Source: Salinibacter pepae (GTDB lineage Bacteria; Bacteroidota; Rhodothermia; Rhodothermales; Salinibacteraceae). Taken from it: a stretch of DNA of 64,000 bases. A program made the translations under genes and the position numbers. This document shows positions 3,971 to 49,909 of the stretch, piece by piece. The notes under the pieces were generated by a model that ran no database searches, had not been told where the DNA came from, and saw nothing but the letters and a program-made list of their open reading frames with translations. Numbering within the stretch: the stretch's first letter is position 1; each line of letters begins with the position of its first letter. The stretch lies in NCBI RefSeq assembly GCF_947077775.1, contig NZ_CAMTTE010000001.1:3500501-3564500 (forward strand), in the 5' to 3' direction.

Positions 3971-4576
3971 ATGTACACGTCTGCTGCCCTCCGGTACATC
4001 CCCAACCTTCTGACGGTCGGTCGGATTCTGGTGACCCCGTTGCTGCTCCTGCTCCTGTCGGTTCCGAGCACGGCCGGCCAGATGAGTGCGGTCGTGCTCT
4101 TCGTTCTGGCGTCCTTGACGGACTACTACGACGGGGTGTTGGCCCGTCGGTACGGCGTGCGGTCGCGGCTCGGGCAGTACCTCGACCCCCTGGCGGATAA
4201 GATTCTGATTCTGGGGACCTTCATCGCCCTCGCCCTGGAGGCCCCCGACCTCGTCCCGTGGTGGGCCGTCGTGGCCATCGCCCTTCGCGACGTTGTCGTG
4301 ACGGTCCTGCGGTCGTGGGCCGAAGCGTCCGGGCAGACGCTGCACACCTACCGCGTGGCGAAGGGGAAGACGATGCTGCAGGCCGCATTCCTGTTCGGCG
4401 TGCTCACGCTCCGGGCCGCGACGCACTTTTCCCCGCCGCTTCGCGACGCCGCCCGGTGGCTGCTTTACGACAGCGGCCTGCCGGGGCTGGCCCTAACGGT
4501 CGTCGTCGGGTTTACGCTGGCCACGGGCGCGCTGTACGTGGTGGCGCCGGTGGAAGAGAAGGGGGAACTGGAGTAG
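3971..4576 (+). CDS. pgsA: CDP-alcohol phosphatidyltransferase, PgsA-like
   Basis: 201 residues, normal for CDP-diacylglycerol-glycerol-3-phosphate 3-phosphatidyltransferase, the membrane enzyme that commits CDP-DAG to phosphatidylglycerol. The family signature D-x2-DG-x2-AR-x8-G-x3-D-x3-D is seen in DYYDGVLARRYG followed by GQYLDPLADK, which holds the metal and CDP-binding aspartates. Hydrophobic segments at LLTVGRILVTPLLLLLL, SAVVLFVLASL, VVAIALRDVVV and near the C-terminus (LALTVVVGFTLATGALYVV) fit an integral membrane enzyme. The ATG at 3971 is used because MYTSAALRYIPNLLTVGR matches the usual PgsA start; the longer upstream frame is not protein-like. Substrate (glycerol-P versus another alcohol) is inferred. 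pyrE follows 46 bases downstream. Confidence 0.8.
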   Translation: MYTSAALRYIPNLLTVGRILVTPLLLLLLSVPSTAGQMSAVVLFVLASLTDYYDGVLARRYGVRSRLGQYLDPLADKILILGTFIALALEAPDLVPWWAVVAIALRDVVVTVLRSWAEASGQTLHTYRVAKGKTMLQAAFLFGVLTLRAATHFSPPLRDAARWLLYDSGLPGLALTVVVGFTLATGALYVVAPVEEKGELE

Positions 4577-4622
4577 CGCTCCATGCCGCACTCGCGCCCT
4601 CGACTGACTGCTGTCGTCCGTG

Positions 4623-5297
4623 ATGTCCCAAGACCTCTTCGCTCCATCGTCGGCTGAGCGGGCCCGCGCCCTCGCGGATGCCCTGCTGAGCATTGATGCC
4701 GTCTCGCTCCGCCCGCACGACCCGTTCACGTGGTCCTCGGGCCTCGCGGCGCCCATCTACTGCGACAACCGGCAGACCCTGGCCCATCCGTCCGTTCGCG
4801 GACGCATTGCGGACGGGTTTGCGGAGGTTGTACGGGGGGACGACGGGGCCTCGCTCACCGTGGCGGGCACGGCCACGGCCGGCATCCCCCACGCGGCCTG
4901 GCTGGCCGACCGGATCGAGGCACCGATGGCGTACGTCCGTGACTCGGCCAAAGGGCACGGCCAGGGGCGGCGCATCGAGGGGGCACGGCCGGGGGGAGGG
5001 GATGAGGTTGTCGTCGTGGAGGATCTCATCTCGACGGGCCGATCCGCGTTGAACGCGGCGGCGGCCGTTCGCGAGACTGGGGCCAATGTCTCGGCCGTAC
5101 TGGCCATCTTCTCGTACGGGCTGGACGCCGCCGCCACGGCCTTTCGGGAGGCCGGCGTGCCCTGCCACGTGCTGACGACGTTTCCCGTGCTGCTGGACGT
5201 GGCGCGCCGCCAGCACTCCCTCTCGGCAGACGCCGAGGCGCTCCTTAACGACTGGCAGGCCGACCCCGAGGCCTGGTCGCACGAACACGGCGGCTGA
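4623..5297 (+). CDS. pyrE: Orotate phosphoribosyltransferase
   Basis: 224 residues. PyrE condenses orotate with PRPP to give OMP, the fifth step of UMP synthesis. The type I phosphoribosyltransferase loop VVVVEDLISTGRSALNA is clear, preceded by the substrate-binding GTATAGIPHAAWLA and YVRDSAKGHG segments in the positions seen in OPRTases; the N-terminus has FTWSSGLAAPIYCDNR, the family's substrate region. A GTG codon immediately precedes the chosen ATG. The gene lies between the pgsA-like gene and cinA in the same direction, away from the pyrB-pyrR pair 39 kb to the right. Confidence 0.93.
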   Translation: MSQDLFAPSSAERARALADALLSIDAVSLRPHDPFTWSSGLAAPIYCDNRQTLAHPSVRGRIADGFAEVVRGDDGASLTVAGTATAGIPHAAWLADRIEAPMAYVRDSAKGHGQGRRIEGARPGGGDEVVVVEDLISTGRSALNAAAAVRETGANVSAVLAIFSYGLDAAATAFREAGVPCHVLTTFPVLLDVARRQHSLSADAEALLNDWQADPEAWSHEHGG

Positions 5298-5389
5298 GCC
5301 GGCGTGCGCGCACCCCCGGCTGACTCCCGCACCGGCCGGACTGGGGACGCCCCTTGTTTCCGCTCTCTTCTGGTTGCTTTTCCCCCTTG

Positions 5390-6628
5390 ATGAAGGCACA
5401 ACTCCTGACCATCGGCGACGAACTGTTGATTGGCCAGACCACCAATACGAATGCCGCCTGGCTCGGGGGCAGGCTCAGTCGCCTCGGCGTCCGCATGACC
5501 CGGACGGTGACCGTCGGGGACGCCCGCGAGGCGATCTTCCGGGAGCTGGACCGGGCGTACGAGGCGGCCCGCCTCGTCATTTGCACTGGGGGGCTCGGCC
5601 CCACCCACGACGACCTCACGCGGACGGTCATCGCCGATTACTTTGGGGCCCCGCTCCAGACCGACCCGGACGTGCTGGAACGGGTTCGCCAGTACTACGA
5701 CCGGCGAAACCGAGACGTGCCGCCGTCCGCCCCGGCCCTTGCCCAGCGGCCCCAGGGCTTTGAGACGCTCGACAATCCGGTTGGCGCCGCCGTGGGGTTG
5801 TGGTACGAGGCCCCAGACGGGCGGCTGATCGTGCTGTTGCCCGGGATCCCGGAAGAGATGACCGCCATCTTCGAGGCCTCGGTCCAGCCGCGGCTCGAAG
5901 AGCAGTCGGGCGTGGGCGAGGTGCGCCACCGAACCCTCGTGACGGCGGGGATCGGGGAGACGGCCCTGCAGGAGAAGCTGGGCGACCTGTCCGACGTGCT
6001 GGGGGACGACGTGTCCCTGGCGTACCTGCCCTCCACGAGCGGGGTGCGCCTGCGCCTCTCGGCCGACGCCCGGCAGACGACGGCGGGTGCGCGCCTGGAT
6101 ACGGTGGAGGCGGCAATCCGGGAGCGTGCGGGAGACGACATCATCGGCACCGGCGATGTGACCCTGGAAGCGGTGCTGGGGGAGGCACTGCGGACCCGCG
6201 ACGCCACAATTGCCAGTGCGGAGAGCGCGACGGGCGGGCTCATTGGGCACCGGTTGACGGGGGTCGCCGGGTCGTCCGACTACTACCTGGGAAGCGTGGT
6301 CGCCTACGCCAATTCCGCAAAGAAAACCATCCTGGGCGTGGACGAGGCGGCGATCCGTGAGCACGGCGCCGTGAGCGAGGCGGTCGCCGTCCAGATGGCC
6401 GAGGGGGTGCGGGCGGCGCTCGGCACCACGGTGGGCGTGTCGACCACCGGCATCGCGGGGCCGACGGGCGGCACGCCCGAGAAGCCGGTGGGCACCGTGT
6501 GGGTCGGGTACGCCGACGCGTCCGGGCGGCACGCCCGGCGCCACCAGTTCGTAGAGGACCGCACGTTGAACAAAGAGCTCTTCGCGTCCGCGGCCCTCGA
6601 ACAGGCGCGCCGGACGCTGTCGGCGTAG
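5390..6628 (+). CDS. cinA: CinA-family protein with nicotinamide-nucleotide amidase domain
   Basis: 412 residues with the two-domain CinA layout. The N-terminal MoCF-like domain begins KAQLLTIGDELLIGQTTNTN and carries TGGLGPTHDDLT; the C-terminal PncC domain carries SAESATGGLIGHRLTGV, SDYYLGSVVAYAN and STTGIAGPTGG. PncC deamidates NMN to NaMN for NAD salvage; the N-terminal domain of full-length CinA has been reported as an ADP-ribose pyrophosphatase. The name reflects its link to competence in Streptococcus, which is not implied here. The ATG at 5390 places the GDE motif at the expected distance. It lies 92 bases after pyrE on the same strand. Confidence 0.92.
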   Translation: MKAQLLTIGDELLIGQTTNTNAAWLGGRLSRLGVRMTRTVTVGDAREAIFRELDRAYEAARLVICTGGLGPTHDDLTRTVIADYFGAPLQTDPDVLERVRQYYDRRNRDVPPSAPALAQRPQGFETLDNPVGAAVGLWYEAPDGRLIVLLPGIPEEMTAIFEASVQPRLEEQSGVGEVRHRTLVTAGIGETALQEKLGDLSDVLGDDVSLAYLPSTSGVRLRLSADARQTTAGARLDTVEAAIRERAGDDIIGTGDVTLEAVLGEALRTRDATIASAESATGGLIGHRLTGVAGSSDYYLGSVVAYANSAKKTILGVDEAAIREHGAVSEAVAVQMAEGVRAALGTTVGVSTTGIAGPTGGTPEKPVGTVWVGYADASGRHARRHQFVEDRTLNKELFASAALEQARRTLSA

Positions 6629-8247: not shown

Positions 8248-8374
8248 AGATGGGTGTGTGGGTTGGTCGTTGGGGATGTCAGAGGTCACACACTGCAAAT
8301 GCGTGCCCCCCTGTACGTTCCTCCCCGGCCCCGCTTTTCGGAAAGAACACACCAACACCAGCCCCGCCTCGGGG

Positions 8375-13128: not shown

Positions 13129-13263
13129 CTGTACCACGACGCGGGGACCGTGATACACGGGCGGGGGTGAACAATCGGTCAATACCGTTTGGTCGGGCCC
13201 GAGACGGTCGACTCGGTCGGGGCGGGCCCTGCATTCTCTTGCTCATTCAATGCATGCACGCTT

Positions 13264-15087
13264 ATGGAAACGCCGGACACCGGGGCCAACGACGTGCGGT
13301 GGGCCCTCGACGACCTGTACGCCGACCCGGATGCCCTCGAAGAGGACCTTGCGTCACTGGAGGCCGACGCGACGGCCTTCGCCGAGCAGTACCGAGGACG
13401 GATTGGAGAGTTAGGACCCGAAGCCTTGTCTGAGGCCCTGGACACGCTTGGGGCCCTTCAGGACCGGCTCGGCCGGGCACACGCCTACGCGCACCTGTCC
13501 TGGACCGCCGACACCAACGACGCCGAGCGAGGGGCCCTCCGGCAGTCGGTGCAAGAGACGGTGGACCGCATCCAGCAACGTCTCGTCTTCTTCGACACCG
13601 AATGGGTGGCCCTCGACCCGGAGCGCGTGGAGGACCTCCTCGGCCACGAGGCCCTCGACGACTACCGCCACTACCTCGAGACCGAATATCAGCGCAAGGA
13701 GCATGTCCTGAGTGAAGCGGAGGAGAAGGTGCTCTCGGAAAAGAGCATTACCGGCAAGAACGCCTGGACGCGCTTCTTCGACGAGACCCTCGGCGCGGCG
13801 CGGTTCGAGCTCGACGGCGAGTCGCTTCCCCAGGAACAGACCCTCTCGAAACTCTACGACCCTGATCGCACCGTTCGGCGGGAGGCGGCGCACGCCTTCA
13901 CGGACGGACTGAAAGACCACCTCCGCACCCTCACGTACGTCTTCAACACGCTCCTGGCGGACAAGGCCTCCACCGATCGGCTCCGCGAATACGACCACTG
14001 GCTCGAACAGCGAAACCTCGCGAACGAGGTGGACGACGAGACGGTCGATACGCTCATCGAGGCCGTCACCGGTCGATACGACCTGGTAGCGCGGTTCTAC
14101 CGCCTCAAAAAGCAGCTCCTAGACGTCGACGAGCTCTACGACTACGACCGCTACGCGCCCATCCGCGAGGCGGACTCCACCTACGAGTGGGGCGATGCGC
14201 GGGCCCTCGTCCTGGAGGCGTACGGGGACTTCCACCCGACGATGGCACAGGTCGCCCGCCAGTTCTTCGAGGGCGACTGGATCGACGCTGCCCTCGTCCC
14301 GGGCAAGCGCAGCGGCGCCTTCAGCCACGGGACGGTGCCGAGCGCCCACCCCTACGTGCTCCTCAACTATACGGGCAAGCCCCGCGACGTGCAGACCCTC
14401 GCCCACGAGTTGGGCCACGGCGTGCACCAGTCCCTGGCCCGCGAGCAGTCCATTTTTCACCACGGCACCCCCCTTACGACTGCCGAGATGGCCTCCGTCT
14501 TTGGCGAGATGCTCGTCTTTCAGCGCCTGATGCGCAACGAGGAGGACCCGGCCAACCGACTCGCCCTCCTGGTTGCCAAGATCGACGACACGCTCGCGAC
14601 GGTCTTTCGGCAGGTGGCCATGAATCGGTTTGAGCACCGGATCCACACGACCCGTCGGAATCAGGGGGAGCTTCAGGCCGACCAGTTCGCGGAGCACTGG
14701 ATGGAGACGCAGCGAGCCATGTTCGAGGGAAGCGTGACCCTTGGCGAGCACTACCAACACTGGTGGAGCTACGTCCCGCACTTCCTGCACACGCCGGGCT
14801 ACGTGTACGCCTACGCGTTCGGCGAACTGTTGGTGCTGGCCCTGTACGCCCGGTACGAGTCGTCCGACGGGGGCTTCGCCGATCGCTACCTGGATCTCCT
14901 CCGGGCGGGCGGGGCCGACTGGCCCCACGAGTTGGTGGGGCAAATGGGGGTGGACCTGGAAGACGAAGACTTCTGGACCGACGGGCTCTCGCATATCGAG
15001 GCCCTCATCGAGGAGGCGGAGGCGCTGGCGGACCAGACGGCGCTCGGCTCGGCCCGCGGGAACGGACGGGCGCGACCCTCCTCCTGA
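13264..15087 (+). CDS. pepF: Oligoendopeptidase F (M3 metallopeptidase)
   Basis: 607 residues, the standard PepF length. PepF is a cytoplasmic zinc peptidase that cleaves peptides of roughly 7-17 residues. The active-site HELGHG is at residues 381-386 (zinc ligands H381, H385) with the third ligand Glu in the downstream TTAEMASVFGEML segment, and the substrate loop GTVPSAHPYVLLNYTGKPRDV precedes the motif as in M3B enzymes. The ATG at 13264 gives METPDTGANDVRWALDDLY, which matches the family's WDLSDLY start region. It is divergent from ytxJ. The methyltransferase reading frame begins 34 bases downstream. Confidence 0.94.
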   Translation: METPDTGANDVRWALDDLYADPDALEEDLASLEADATAFAEQYRGRIGELGPEALSEALDTLGALQDRLGRAHAYAHLSWTADTNDAERGALRQSVQETVDRIQQRLVFFDTEWVALDPERVEDLLGHEALDDYRHYLETEYQRKEHVLSEAEEKVLSEKSITGKNAWTRFFDETLGAARFELDGESLPQEQTLSKLYDPDRTVRREAAHAFTDGLKDHLRTLTYVFNTLLADKASTDRLREYDHWLEQRNLANEVDDETVDTLIEAVTGRYDLVARFYRLKKQLLDVDELYDYDRYAPIREADSTYEWGDARALVLEAYGDFHPTMAQVARQFFEGDWIDAALVPGKRSGAFSHGTVPSAHPYVLLNYTGKPRDVQTLAHELGHGVHQSLAREQSIFHHGTPLTTAEMASVFGEMLVFQRLMRNEEDPANRLALLVAKIDDTLATVFRQVAMNRFEHRIHTTRRNQGELQADQFAEHWMETQRAMFEGSVTLGEHYQHWWSYVPHFLHTPGYVYAYAFGELLVLALYARYESSDGGFADRYLDLLRAGGADWPHELVGQMGVDLEDEDFWTDGLSHIEALIEEAEALADQTALGSARGNGRARPSS

Positions 15088-15576
15088 GTCATTCACCTCG
15101 TCACTGGTCTCCGTTTCCTTGTGTCCGATTCGCCACGCCCGAGCAGCCGGCCCGATTTCTGGGACGTCCGCTACGAGCAGGACCGACATCTCTTCGGGGC
15201 GTGGCCGAATGCCTTCGTGAAGGCAGCGGCCCACCGCCTGCCCCCCGAGAGCGCGGTTGTGGAGCTGGGGGCGGGGGAGGGGCGCACGGCGGCCTGGCTG
15301 GCCCGGGAGCACGGGCATCGCGTGACCGCCGTCGATTTTTCGGAGGCGGCCCTGAAAACGGCGCAGGAGCGGGCGGAGGCCGAGCACCTCCGGCTCGACA
15401 CCGTTCGGGCCGACGTGCGCACCGGGCGGCCCGATCGGCAGTGGGACGCGGCCGTCGTCACGTTCCTGCAGTTGCTTCCCGACGAGCGTCTTCATTTGTG
15501 CCGCTTGCTGAAAACCAGTGTCCGTTCCGGCGGTTGGCTGCTTGCCGAGTGGCTTCGGCCGGCTCACCTGACGGGT

Positions 15577-15620
15577 CCCTACCACCGCATTCCCTACCAC
15601 CGCATTCCCTACCACCGCAT
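15577..15620. repeat. Three tandem 15-base units inside the methyltransferase gene
   Basis: CCCTACCACCGCATT occurs at 15577-15591 and 15592-15606, with a third copy lacking the last base at 15607-15620. The unit length keeps frame and encodes YHRIP repeats. The unit is not found elsewhere in the window. Confidence 0.95.
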
Positions 15621-15791
15621 GGGGCCGAGCCGGGCGGACCGGATGGTACCAGGTGCGTCGGGCCTTCGCGGGCGAGCGCCTTGCGTCTGTGGAGGCCGTA
15701 GACGTGCACCTCCAGGAAGGCCCTCACCGCACTGGGGACGCCGCCGTCGTTCGGGGCGTTGTGCAGGCCGGAGGGGGCTGGAGGAAAAGCG

Positions 15792-15814
15792 GCCGTGGGG
15801 GACCGCCCCACGGC
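15792..15814 (+). terminator. GC-rich hairpin at the 3' end of the methyltransferase region
   Basis: GCCGTGGGG (15792-15800) pairs perfectly with 15806-15814 around a 5-base loop, followed by TGTCTTCC. The T content is poor, and it falls inside the +1 frame of the methyltransferase, so it is a weak terminator candidate. Confidence 0.3.
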
Positions 15815-15932
15815 TGTCTTCCAAATGGCCGTGCCCGGTCGTCAAGGCTTCCCGTGTAGACATTGCCGGTGGCAGAAGATACATTTGCACCTACAAAACT
15901 GTGGGGCATACGTCCCCGGCATCCTTTCTCAC

Positions 15933-15960
15933 TTAGACTCACTTCCTTAGACTCACTTCC
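15933..15960. repeat. 14-base direct repeat just upstream of the first USP gene
   Basis: TTAGACTCACTTCC is present twice in tandem, ending six bases before the ATG at 15967. Each copy contains a TAGACT that could act as a -10 element, or the repeat may affect translation start. Confidence 0.9.
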
Positions 15961-15966
15961 CTCCCC

Positions 15967-16926
15967 ATGCTCGAAATTAATGACCTGCTGGTCGCCCGCG
16001 ACTTCTCGTCGGTCTCCAATCGGGCCGTCCGGTACGCCCTGGACGTGGCCGCGCGGACCGGCGCCACGCTTCATGTCCTGCACGCCGAGGTCCTCCACGA
16101 GGCCTCCACCCCGGACGCGGAGGGCGGCGGCCGCTCGCCAGGGCACGACATTCCCCGATTTCGGGACGAAGTGCGGCAGGAAAGCACCGTTTCGACGGAC
16201 GCCCTCGACGCGGTGGCCATCAAGGAGATCGAGCGACGTGACGTGTCGGCCGGCCCCGCAATCCTGAGTTACGCGGCGGAGACGGGCGTGGATCTCATCG
16301 CCCTCGGGACCCATGGGCGCCGCGGCCCGAGTCGCATCCTACTGGGTAGTGTGGCCGAGGAGGTGGTGCGCCGGTCCGATCAACCGGTGTTGACGGTCCG
16401 TGGCGACGCCGAGGAGCAGACTGAAGTCCACCCCCGGATTGTCGATCGGATTCTGGTCCCCGTTGACTTTTCTGAACCGTCCCGCGAGGCCCTCCGCACC
16501 GCGAAGGAATGGGCGGCCCTTTACGACGCGTCGATCGACGTTCTGCACGTCGTGGCCGAGCGCATTCAGCCGGCTTTCTATACCGGCGGGGTGCAGTCCA
16601 TTTACGACATGGAGCCGGACATTGAGCAGAAGATGATGGACCGCCTGGAGGCCTTCGTCGCCGACACCGGCGGGCCGGAGCGGGCAATCCGACCGCACGT
16701 CACGGTCGGGAACGCAGCGCCGGACATCGCGGAGTTTGTAGACGCTGAGTCGGTGGACCTCGTGGCCATGTCGACCCACGGCCGCACGGGGCTGGATCGC
16801 TTTCTGCTCGGAAGTGTGGCCGAGAAGATCATCCGACATGTGCACTGCCCGGTTCTGACAACGAAGCCGTTTGGCACGACCTTCGCCCCGTCGGCGGACG
16901 CGGCCGAATCGGATGCCGGTGCGTGA
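15967..16926 (+). CDS. Tandem-domain universal stress protein (first of two)
   Basis: 319 residues holding two UspA domains. Each ends with the ATP-binding G-2x-G-9x-G(S/T) motif: GTHGRRGPSRILLGS in the first and STHGRTGLDRFLLGS in the second. Such cytoplasmic proteins bind ATP and appear under starvation, osmotic or oxidative stress; their molecular output is usually unknown. A linker insertion (EGGGRSPGHDIPRF) sits in the first domain. The ATG follows the 14-base direct repeat directly. The second USP gene begins 43 bases after the stop, so they probably form one transcript. Confidence 0.92.
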   Translation: MLEINDLLVARDFSSVSNRAVRYALDVAARTGATLHVLHAEVLHEASTPDAEGGGRSPGHDIPRFRDEVRQESTVSTDALDAVAIKEIERRDVSAGPAILSYAAETGVDLIALGTHGRRGPSRILLGSVAEEVVRRSDQPVLTVRGDAEEQTEVHPRIVDRILVPVDFSEPSREALRTAKEWAALYDASIDVLHVVAERIQPAFYTGGVQSIYDMEPDIEQKMMDRLEAFVADTGGPERAIRPHVTVGNAAPDIAEFVDAESVDLVAMSTHGRTGLDRFLLGSVAEKIIRHVHCPVLTTKPFGTTFAPSADAAESDAGA

Positions 16927-47090: not shown

Positions 47091-48419
47091 TCATGGGGCG
47101 CCATATTCGCTGAGGTCAAGCGTCAACTCTTCGCGGAAGGCCCGGTAGCCCGTCATCAGGATTGCGGTCATGGGCACGGCAATCAGAAGGCCGAACACGC
47201 CGAGCAGCGTCCCGAAGACGAGCAGGGAGAAGAGCACCAGGAGCGGGTGCAGGCCGACCTGGTAGCTGAGGATGTTTGGGGTCAGCACGCTCTGTTCGAG
47301 CAGGCTTTCCCCCAGGAGGACCGCAATGACGATGACGGCCTTGACCCAGCTCCCGAGGATGAGCGCCACCAGGGCGCCCACGACCATCGTGATGAGGGCG
47401 CCGATCTGGGGAATCAGGTTGAGGAGGCCGGCGAGCAGCCCGATCAGCAGCCAGAACGGGATGTCGAACAGAAACAGGAGCACCGACACGTTGATGGTTG
47501 CGATGATGCTGATGAGAAGCTGCCCGCGAAAGTACCGGCCCACGATGCTTCCGGCCTCGACCAGGTAATCGCGCCGCCCGCCCGCCGTGGGAAAAAGGTC
47601 GACCAGGCCCGACTGGACTGTCGGGTAGTCCTTCAGGGTGTAAAAGAGGATGACGGGCACCAGGGCGAGGAGCGTGACGACGCCTAGAAAGGACCCCAGG
47701 GAGGCCACCAGGTTTTCGGCGGCGCTGGGCAGGCGGCCGGCCTGCTCCTTGATCAGGGCCTGGAGTTGGGCAATCACCTCCTGCTTTCGGAGGAGCCCGG
47801 CCCCTTCGAGGGCGTCCAGCACCGTGGAGGCCTCCAGCCAGGCGCGCAGGGTCTGGACGGTCCCCAGCACCCGGTCGGAGAGGGCCTGCGCCTGATTGGC
47901 GATGTTCGGGGCGAGAATGAGAATGAACAGAACAAAGACGCCCACCACGAGGCTGGTCACCACGAGCGAGGGCAGCCAACGGGGCACCTGATAGCGCTCC
48001 CTGAGCCGCTCGACGAGCGGGTTCAAGAGGTAGGCCAGGAGGTACACGGCCGCAAACGGAACGAGAACGCGGCTGACCTTGTCCAGCGTCCAGAGCAGAA
48101 GCAGAAGCCCCCCGGAGAGCAGCAGGGCCCGCACGGCCTTGTGGCCGCGCAGTGGCCAGAGGAGAACGACGCCCGCAAGGCCCACGAGGGCCGGAGACAG
48201 AAAGCCGTTCTCCGGCGGGGGCGTGTGCATCTCGTACAACATCACGAGGAAGAGCACGACCCCACCCGCCACGAGCACCGCTTCGAATGCCACCCTGCGA
48301 AGCCGTTCCAGCCGGGACGCCGGGGCCGACGATCCGGGCGAGGAGGGGTCCGAAGGGTCGAGGGGCACGACCGAATCGGAAGACTCCGATGAGTCGGGCG
48401 AGGGGGAGTCGGGGGGCAT
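47091..48419 (-). CDS. AI-2E/PerM family transporter
   Basis: 442 residues with an acidic Ser/Pro-rich N-terminal tail of about 35 residues, then around eight hydrophobic helices. FAAVYLLAYLLNPLVERL, LVPVILFYTLKDY and LLAGLLNLIPQIGALITMVVG are typical of the PF01594 family. Members have been proposed to export AI-2 or to move Na+ for protons; the role here is unknown. It has no luxS nearby. Located 145 bases upstream of the two-span membrane gene on the same strand and divergent from the ARMT1-like gene. Confidence 0.9.
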   Translation of the reverse strand: MPPDSPSPDSSESSDSVVPLDPSDPSSPGSSAPASRLERLRRVAFEAVLVAGGVVLFLVMLYEMHTPPPENGFLSPALVGLAGVVLLWPLRGHKAVRALLLSGGLLLLLWTLDKVSRVLVPFAAVYLLAYLLNPLVERLRERYQVPRWLPSLVVTSLVVGVFVLFILILAPNIANQAQALSDRVLGTVQTLRAWLEASTVLDALEGAGLLRKQEVIAQLQALIKEQAGRLPSAAENLVASLGSFLGVVTLLALVPVILFYTLKDYPTVQSGLVDLFPTAGGRRDYLVEAGSIVGRYFRGQLLISIIATINVSVLLFLFDIPFWLLIGLLAGLLNLIPQIGALITMVVGALVALILGSWVKAVIVIAVLLGESLLEQSVLTPNILSYQVGLHPLLVLFSLLVFGTLLGVFGLLIAVPMTAILMTGYRAFREELTLDLSEYGAP

Positions 48420-48655
48420 GGGACGGGAGACGGACTTTGACGGACCGCCTGCTGCAAACTGCTTCTGTCCTGATGGGTTCGGGCCGCCGGTCGTCTACGT
48501 TTGGCGGGGGCATTGCTGCTCGTGAGAGACCCGGAGCCCGTCCCCCAGTCTATGGTTTTGGAGAAAAGAGGAACGGGCCCGACCTCCCGGGCGGGGTCGC
48601 AGTACAGATTCCGAAGAATCTCTGTCCCCTTCTCTTCCGCAAGCCGATTGCTATT

Positions 48656-49909
48656 GTGGACCCTACCGACTCCTCTGCACCGCTTCCCCCACCCCTTCGG
48701 GGCACCAATTCGGGAGCGTTCACGCGCCGCACGATCGCCGCCCGATGGCCCCGAATCGCCGGGCGTGTCATCGCGGACAACGACTTTCCCGACCCGATCA
48801 ATGCTCGCATCCAGGCCCTCCGCGATGCGCTTCCCAACGGGCCGATCCGGCGGCTTCGCGACGACGAGGCGCCCGACGCGGCCCTCTGGGAGGAGTATGT
48901 GGCGCCTCATCTCGGGAAGACCTGGTTGGAGGTGCCGTGGTTCTTCGGTGAGACCTATTTCTATCGTCGGCTGTTAGAGGCGACCGGATACTTCCGGGCC
49001 GGGGCCGGGCGCCAGGCCGACCCGTTTGCCGATCAGAAAGAGCAGGGCCTCGCTCACACTGAAGCCCGAATCGAGGCACTGGCTCGGCGACGGAACCGGG
49101 CCCGCGACGAGGGGCACGAGACGCATTCCGTCCTGACACGGTTGCTCCGTTCGGCGCTCTGGGGCAACCAGGCCGACCTGAGCATGTGGACGGCCGACGA
49201 GGAGGGGCCGGGCCACCGGCATCCCGAGCGGGCCGAAGAGCACCTTCTGGTCGACGACACCCCCGTGGCGCTCGCGCAACTGGAGGAACGGGATCGCCCG
49301 GCCCGGGTCGACGTGTGGGCCGACAACGCGGGGTTTGAGCTCGTGTCGGACCTTGCCCTGATCGACGGGCTGCTTGCCGCCGCGGCCGTCGGGCGGGTAA
49401 CTTTGCACCTGAAGGCGCATCCCACCTTTGTCTCCGACGCGACCGTCGACGACGTGCACGCCACACTCGCCACCCTGGCCGACGCCGACGAGGCGCCTGT
49501 TCGGGCTCTGGGGGGGCGGCTGCGCAGGGCCCTCGCGGCCGGGCGCCTTCGCCTGCGGGAGGGGTGGGTCTGGACCTCGCCGCTCCGGGCCCGTGAGCTG
49601 CCGCCTCCCGTGCGTGCCGAAATGGCCCGGGCCGATCTCCTGATCAGCAAGGGGGACGCCAACTACCGGCGCCTCCTGGGGGACCGGCAGTGGGACTTCA
49701 CGACGCCGTTTGCGGAGGCAAGTGCGCCGGTGCCGGTGCCGGTGCTGGCGCTCCGGACGCACAAGTCGGAGGTGGCCGCCGGGCTGTCGGCGGCCCAGGT
49801 CGATCGGCTCGACGACGAGGAGCCGGACTGGGCGGTGAACGGAGAGTGGGGCGTCATGCAGTTTGCCCCGGCCGACGCATCGCCGGAAGCCATGCGCCCC
49901 GTGGCCTGA
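48656..49909 (+). CDS. ARMT1-like (DUF89) damage-control metal phosphatase
   Basis: 417 residues from a GTG at 48656, the best-placed start before conserved sequence. WLEVPWFFGETYFYRRLLEATGYF, VDVWADNAGFELVSDLALID and LLISKGDANYRRLLGDRQWD match the DUF89/ARMT1 family; the Asp and Asn of DNAGFE and the Asp of KGDANYR bind the metal. Family members dephosphorylate damaged or side-product sugar phosphates; a carboxyl-methyl transfer role has been reported for human ARMT1 and disputed. It precedes yhbY on the same strand by 81 bases. Confidence 0.82.
   Translation: MDPTDSSAPLPPPLRGTNSGAFTRRTIAARWPRIAGRVIADNDFPDPINARIQALRDALPNGPIRRLRDDEAPDAALWEEYVAPHLGKTWLEVPWFFGETYFYRRLLEATGYFRAGAGRQADPFADQKEQGLAHTEARIEALARRRNRARDEGHETHSVLTRLLRSALWGNQADLSMWTADEEGPGHRHPERAEEHLLVDDTPVALAQLEERDRPARVDVWADNAGFELVSDLALIDGLLAAAAVGRVTLHLKAHPTFVSDATVDDVHATLATLADADEAPVRALGGRLRRALAAGRLRLREGWVWTSPLRARELPPPVRAEMARADLLISKGDANYRRLLGDRQWDFTTPFAEASAPVPVPVLALRTHKSEVAAGLSAAQVDRLDDEEPDWAVNGEWGVMQFAPADASPEAMRPVA

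Follow-up and report, generated by a model that had tools for sequence, protein, structure and literature searches.

A probable recent pseudogene of a TehB/Slr1183-like methyltransferase in Salinibacter pepae, with an in-frame 15-base triplication and a separate frameshift

Closest described systems

The class I SAM methyltransferases are defined by a seven-strand core that is complete in one reading frame. Among them, the Slr1183-type and TehB-like enzymes (PDB 2kw5, 3mer and 2n47; 2xva) are the closest solved relatives of the gene described here, which lies in a 64,000-nucleotide stretch of Salinibacter pepae DNA, hereafter the window. S. pepae is reported to share an ANI of about 94% with S. 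ruber (PMC11568254). A literature search found no paper on this methyltransferase gene. The intact orthologue matches Slr1183 in sequence over almost its entire length (E=3.5e-19), and Slr1183 and TehB are its best fold matches. In contrast to these proteins, the window copy is cut off past strand 5 by a frameshift, and its repeat adds 10 residues.

Two other kinds of described system are relevant: simple-sequence contingency loci, in which a change in repeat copy number alters the reading frame or promoter spacing, and ordinary bacterial pseudogenes that carry short tandem duplications and deletions, in which disabling mutations stand against intact orthologues. We read the window locus as a class I SAM-dependent methyltransferase gene of the TehB/Slr1183-like type that was recently inactivated and is now a pseudogene, with a probability of roughly 0.88. 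The resemblance to ordinary bacterial pseudogenes is close: the window copy has several unrelated disabling lesions, relatives have a single-copy intact form, and derived changes fall at conserved sites. Nothing notable differs from such pseudogenes; the perfect three-copy 15-base array is unique in the window.

The methyltransferase gene and its relatives

The gene occupies positions 15121–15781 (+) of the window and has a GTG start at 15121. It was compared with relatives represented by one genome per species, the nearest of which, G005, is 95.5% identical across the aligned region. The gene and its neighbours comprise the following features.

13252..15087, + strand: intact M3-family oligoendopeptidase (PepF-like), upstream neighbour (TIGR02290, E=5.4e-176)
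15121..15651, + strand: 5' part of the methyltransferase, frame 0, with the SAM-binding domain (Pfam Methyltransf_25; tblastn against G005)
15650..15778, + strand: 3' part of the methyltransferase, read in the +1 frame and homologous to residues 170–212 (84% identity to G005)
15967..16926, + strand: intact tandem-domain universal stress protein (usp), downstream neighbour (Pfam Usp, E=4.2e-60)

In G001–G004 and G012 the gene likewise follows pepF and precedes usp, with all three in one orientation. The SAM-binding domain is present in the frame-0 part (Methyltransf_25, E=1.1e-14, residues 46–138), which is 87% identical by tblastn to residues 1–167 of the G005 orthologue. Its SAM-binding motifs LGAGEGRT, VDFS and ADVR are undamaged. 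In a profile search the protein fell below all NCBIfam cut-offs, so that no substrate can be assigned. The same genome holds a diverged paralogue (G000:C1:753137-753721; 45% identity) that is open without internal stops.

Eight other Salinibacter genomes (G001, G002, G003, G004, G005, G006, G010 and G012) have a single YDR unit in this gene and an uninterrupted reading frame. Against these intact orthologues the window copy shows disabling mutations, an 8-base deletion with its frameshift and the loss of the stop codon. Elsewhere in the family, homologues from other genera likewise carry one unit at the equivalent place, and none of those compared has more than one. In G007, an 83%-complete draft genome, the frame of the orthologue shifts by 1 base within a GGGGGG run (L034 5440-5449); this shift is unrelated to the window lesions and is probably either a base error or a separate break.

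A triplicated 15-base unit

The most conspicuous feature of the window copy is a short tandem array.

15576..15620, + strand: three perfect tandem copies of TCCCTACCACCGCAT, translated YHRIP YHRIP YHRM (TRF; a single unit, PYDRM, in relatives)

The first-pass annotation had described three 15-base units encoding YHRIP pentapeptides, and this reading is correct: TRF reports 3.0 copies of TCCCTACCACCGCAT at 100% match. This is the top-scoring array of the window and, for periods of 10–60, the sole array in 64 kb with at least three perfect copies. Relative to G005, where the unit is single and the frame unbroken, the window carries a 30-base tandem insertion at 15576, equal to two extra units. 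A search of 13 genomes of the genus found the doubled unit only at the window locus. Each of the three units carries both the D155H change and a GGC-to-GGT change; these changes therefore most simply predate the triplication. Two extra perfect units in the window, against one unit in every relative, support the earlier suggestion of a replication-slippage scar.

That annotation had also raised the possibility of a contingency locus, in which repeat number would switch the gene on and off by phase variation. The window gene resembles simple-sequence contingency loci in having a perfect tandem array within its coding region, close to a frameshift. It differs from them in other respects. The copy number of this repeat cannot switch the frame, because the 15-base period is a multiple of three, and a unit inside the coding region leaves promoter spacing unaltered. 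The frameshift lies outside the repeat, in a separate, non-repetitive 8-base deletion that slippage could not reverse. The array is not conserved: a single unit is found in all compared relatives across the family, and the doubled unit is absent elsewhere in the genome or genus. Given these points and the other lesions of the gene, phase variation is extremely improbable.

Frameshift and loss of the stop codon

Two further lesions lie downstream of the array.

15650..15651, + strand: point at which 8 bases present in G005 are missing, which causes the frameshift (alignment; HSP break in tblastn)
15779..15781, + strand: former stop codon, TGA in G005 and TGG in the window (alignment, sequence and translations)

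A loss of frame 20–35 bases past the repeat had been reported; it is seen about 30 bases downstream, at this deletion. The frameshift comes from the 8-base deletion alone, because the 30-base insertion is a multiple of three. With G005 taken as the ancestor, the deleted bases are non-repetitive and the junction has no microhomology. The net change in gene length relative to G005 is +22 bases. Alignment of both frame segments to an intact homologue, the check that had been proposed, follows frame 0 until 15651, and between 15650 and 15778 it follows the +1 frame. The earlier statement that the +1 frame resumes a normal C-terminus thus holds for the homologous stretch and fails at its end, where the native stop has become TGG. 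The frame-0 reading continues to a chance stop at 15936.

A preserved +1 segment could instead indicate programmed ribosomal frameshifting, or the division of the gene into two parts that each encode a functional protein. The segment is still 84% identical to relatives, and a GTG at 15653 could start a 68-aa ORF. Programmed frameshifting was rejected, since the relatives use one frame and there is accordingly no conserved recoding. Against either version, the junction lacks residues and the native stop is gone. No Pfam family matches the 68-aa ORF, which would amount to no more than one helix and two of the strands in the methyltransferase fold. Recoding or a functional split thus has hardly any likelihood.

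Consequences for the fold

The intact S. altiplanensis orthologue is modelled with a pLDDT of 83 as a seven-strand methyltransferase fold. In this model the repeat site is a loop past strand 5, at about residues 153–157. The frameshift precedes helix 168–174 and strands 180–191 and 197–208, so that the last helix and the last two strands are lost. The window copy therefore does not have the complete core in one frame that defines the class: its last helix and strands 6–7 are out of frame. The frame-0 product folded alone gave an uninformative model (pLDDT 35), which was not used. The window copy would have lost its enzyme activity, and annotating the locus as a working methyltransferase would probably be wrong.

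Substitutions and selection

Residue changes were assigned to branches with the use of G001 and G002. The assignable differences between the window and G005 comprise 13 derived in the window and 2 derived in G005. One of the 13, E170Q, results from the deletion junction itself, so 12 are independent. Four window-derived changes (W102G, Y127C, D155H and L196R) fall in columns that are otherwise invariant in the eight Salinibacter orthologues. The dN/dS ratio relative to G005 is 0.40 for residues 1–152 and 0.74 for residues 170–212, against 0.02–0.29 in the flanking genes. On the window branch, nonsynonymous to synonymous changes number 16:7 in the gene and 29:38 in the flanking genes, a marginal difference (Fisher p=0.05) in which the junction codon supplies one of the 16. 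The flanking genes also show a somewhat higher value on the window branch. Relaxed selection on the window copy is thus likely from these sequence comparisons rather than proven.

Sequencing error or gene decay

The first-pass annotation had also named an assembly error. By this explanation the true gene would have a single unit and an unbroken frame. Occasional base errors are possible, as a few other frame breaks in the window relative to G005 come from 1–2 base indels (5315, 8368 and 48510). An error at the methyltransferase would require three independent events of differing kinds within a 660-base gene: an exact +30 tandem insertion, a −8 non-repetitive deletion and a stop-loss substitution. 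Window-derived changes at invariant residues accompany these three lesions, and the assembly is 99.97% complete, with 3 contigs and 3.63 Mb. Assembly or sequencing error is consequently unlikely.

At 4515-6544 (minus strand), a 677-aa G005 ORF is split in the window near 5315, where one base is missing from a C run; it has no Pfam match, and the split is possibly a base error or a second pseudogene. Near 8368, a 193-aa G005 ORF loses frame close to its C-terminus through a 2-base deletion, and the window part has no Pfam match. At 47094-48910 (minus strand), a 1-base loss from a G run near 48510 breaks the frame of the orthologue of a 606-aa AI-2E family transporter ORF; the break lies upstream of its transporter domain.

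At the level of aligned sequence, the lesions of the methyltransferase gene are present in the window copy, absent in its relatives and placed on the window lineage. Its decay as a probable pseudogene comprises the following changes. (i) Two extra 15-base units were gained in frame, adding 10 residues, presumably through replication slippage or a short tandem duplication. (ii) Eight bases were lost about 30 bases downstream of the repeat, producing the frameshift. (iii) The stop codon was lost, and substitutions arose at conserved residues. Slippage is the mechanism suggested by the array, and any order of these events is presumptive. The locus is a well-documented example of early gene decay, in that an intact relative at 95% identity places each lesion on one lineage. 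The decay would be of an ordinary sort, without wider consequence. The allele could alternatively be polymorphic in the natural population, with a repeat-bearing truncated protein still made in a changed role. The pepF-methyltransferase-usp locus would then represent local diversification rather than decay; we regard this as very unlikely.

Neighbouring indels

Three of the indels of at least 8 bases between the window and G005 fall at 15576-15960. A local mutational hotspot was considered and is not claimed, because pseudogene or intergenic sequence, which tolerates indels, makes up much of this interval. The interval includes a second small tandem duplication.

15932..15960, + strand: 2.1 copies of the 14-base unit CTTAGACTCACTTC (single copy in G005 and G002)

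This duplication lies just upstream of the usp ATG at 15967 and may change usp leader spacing.
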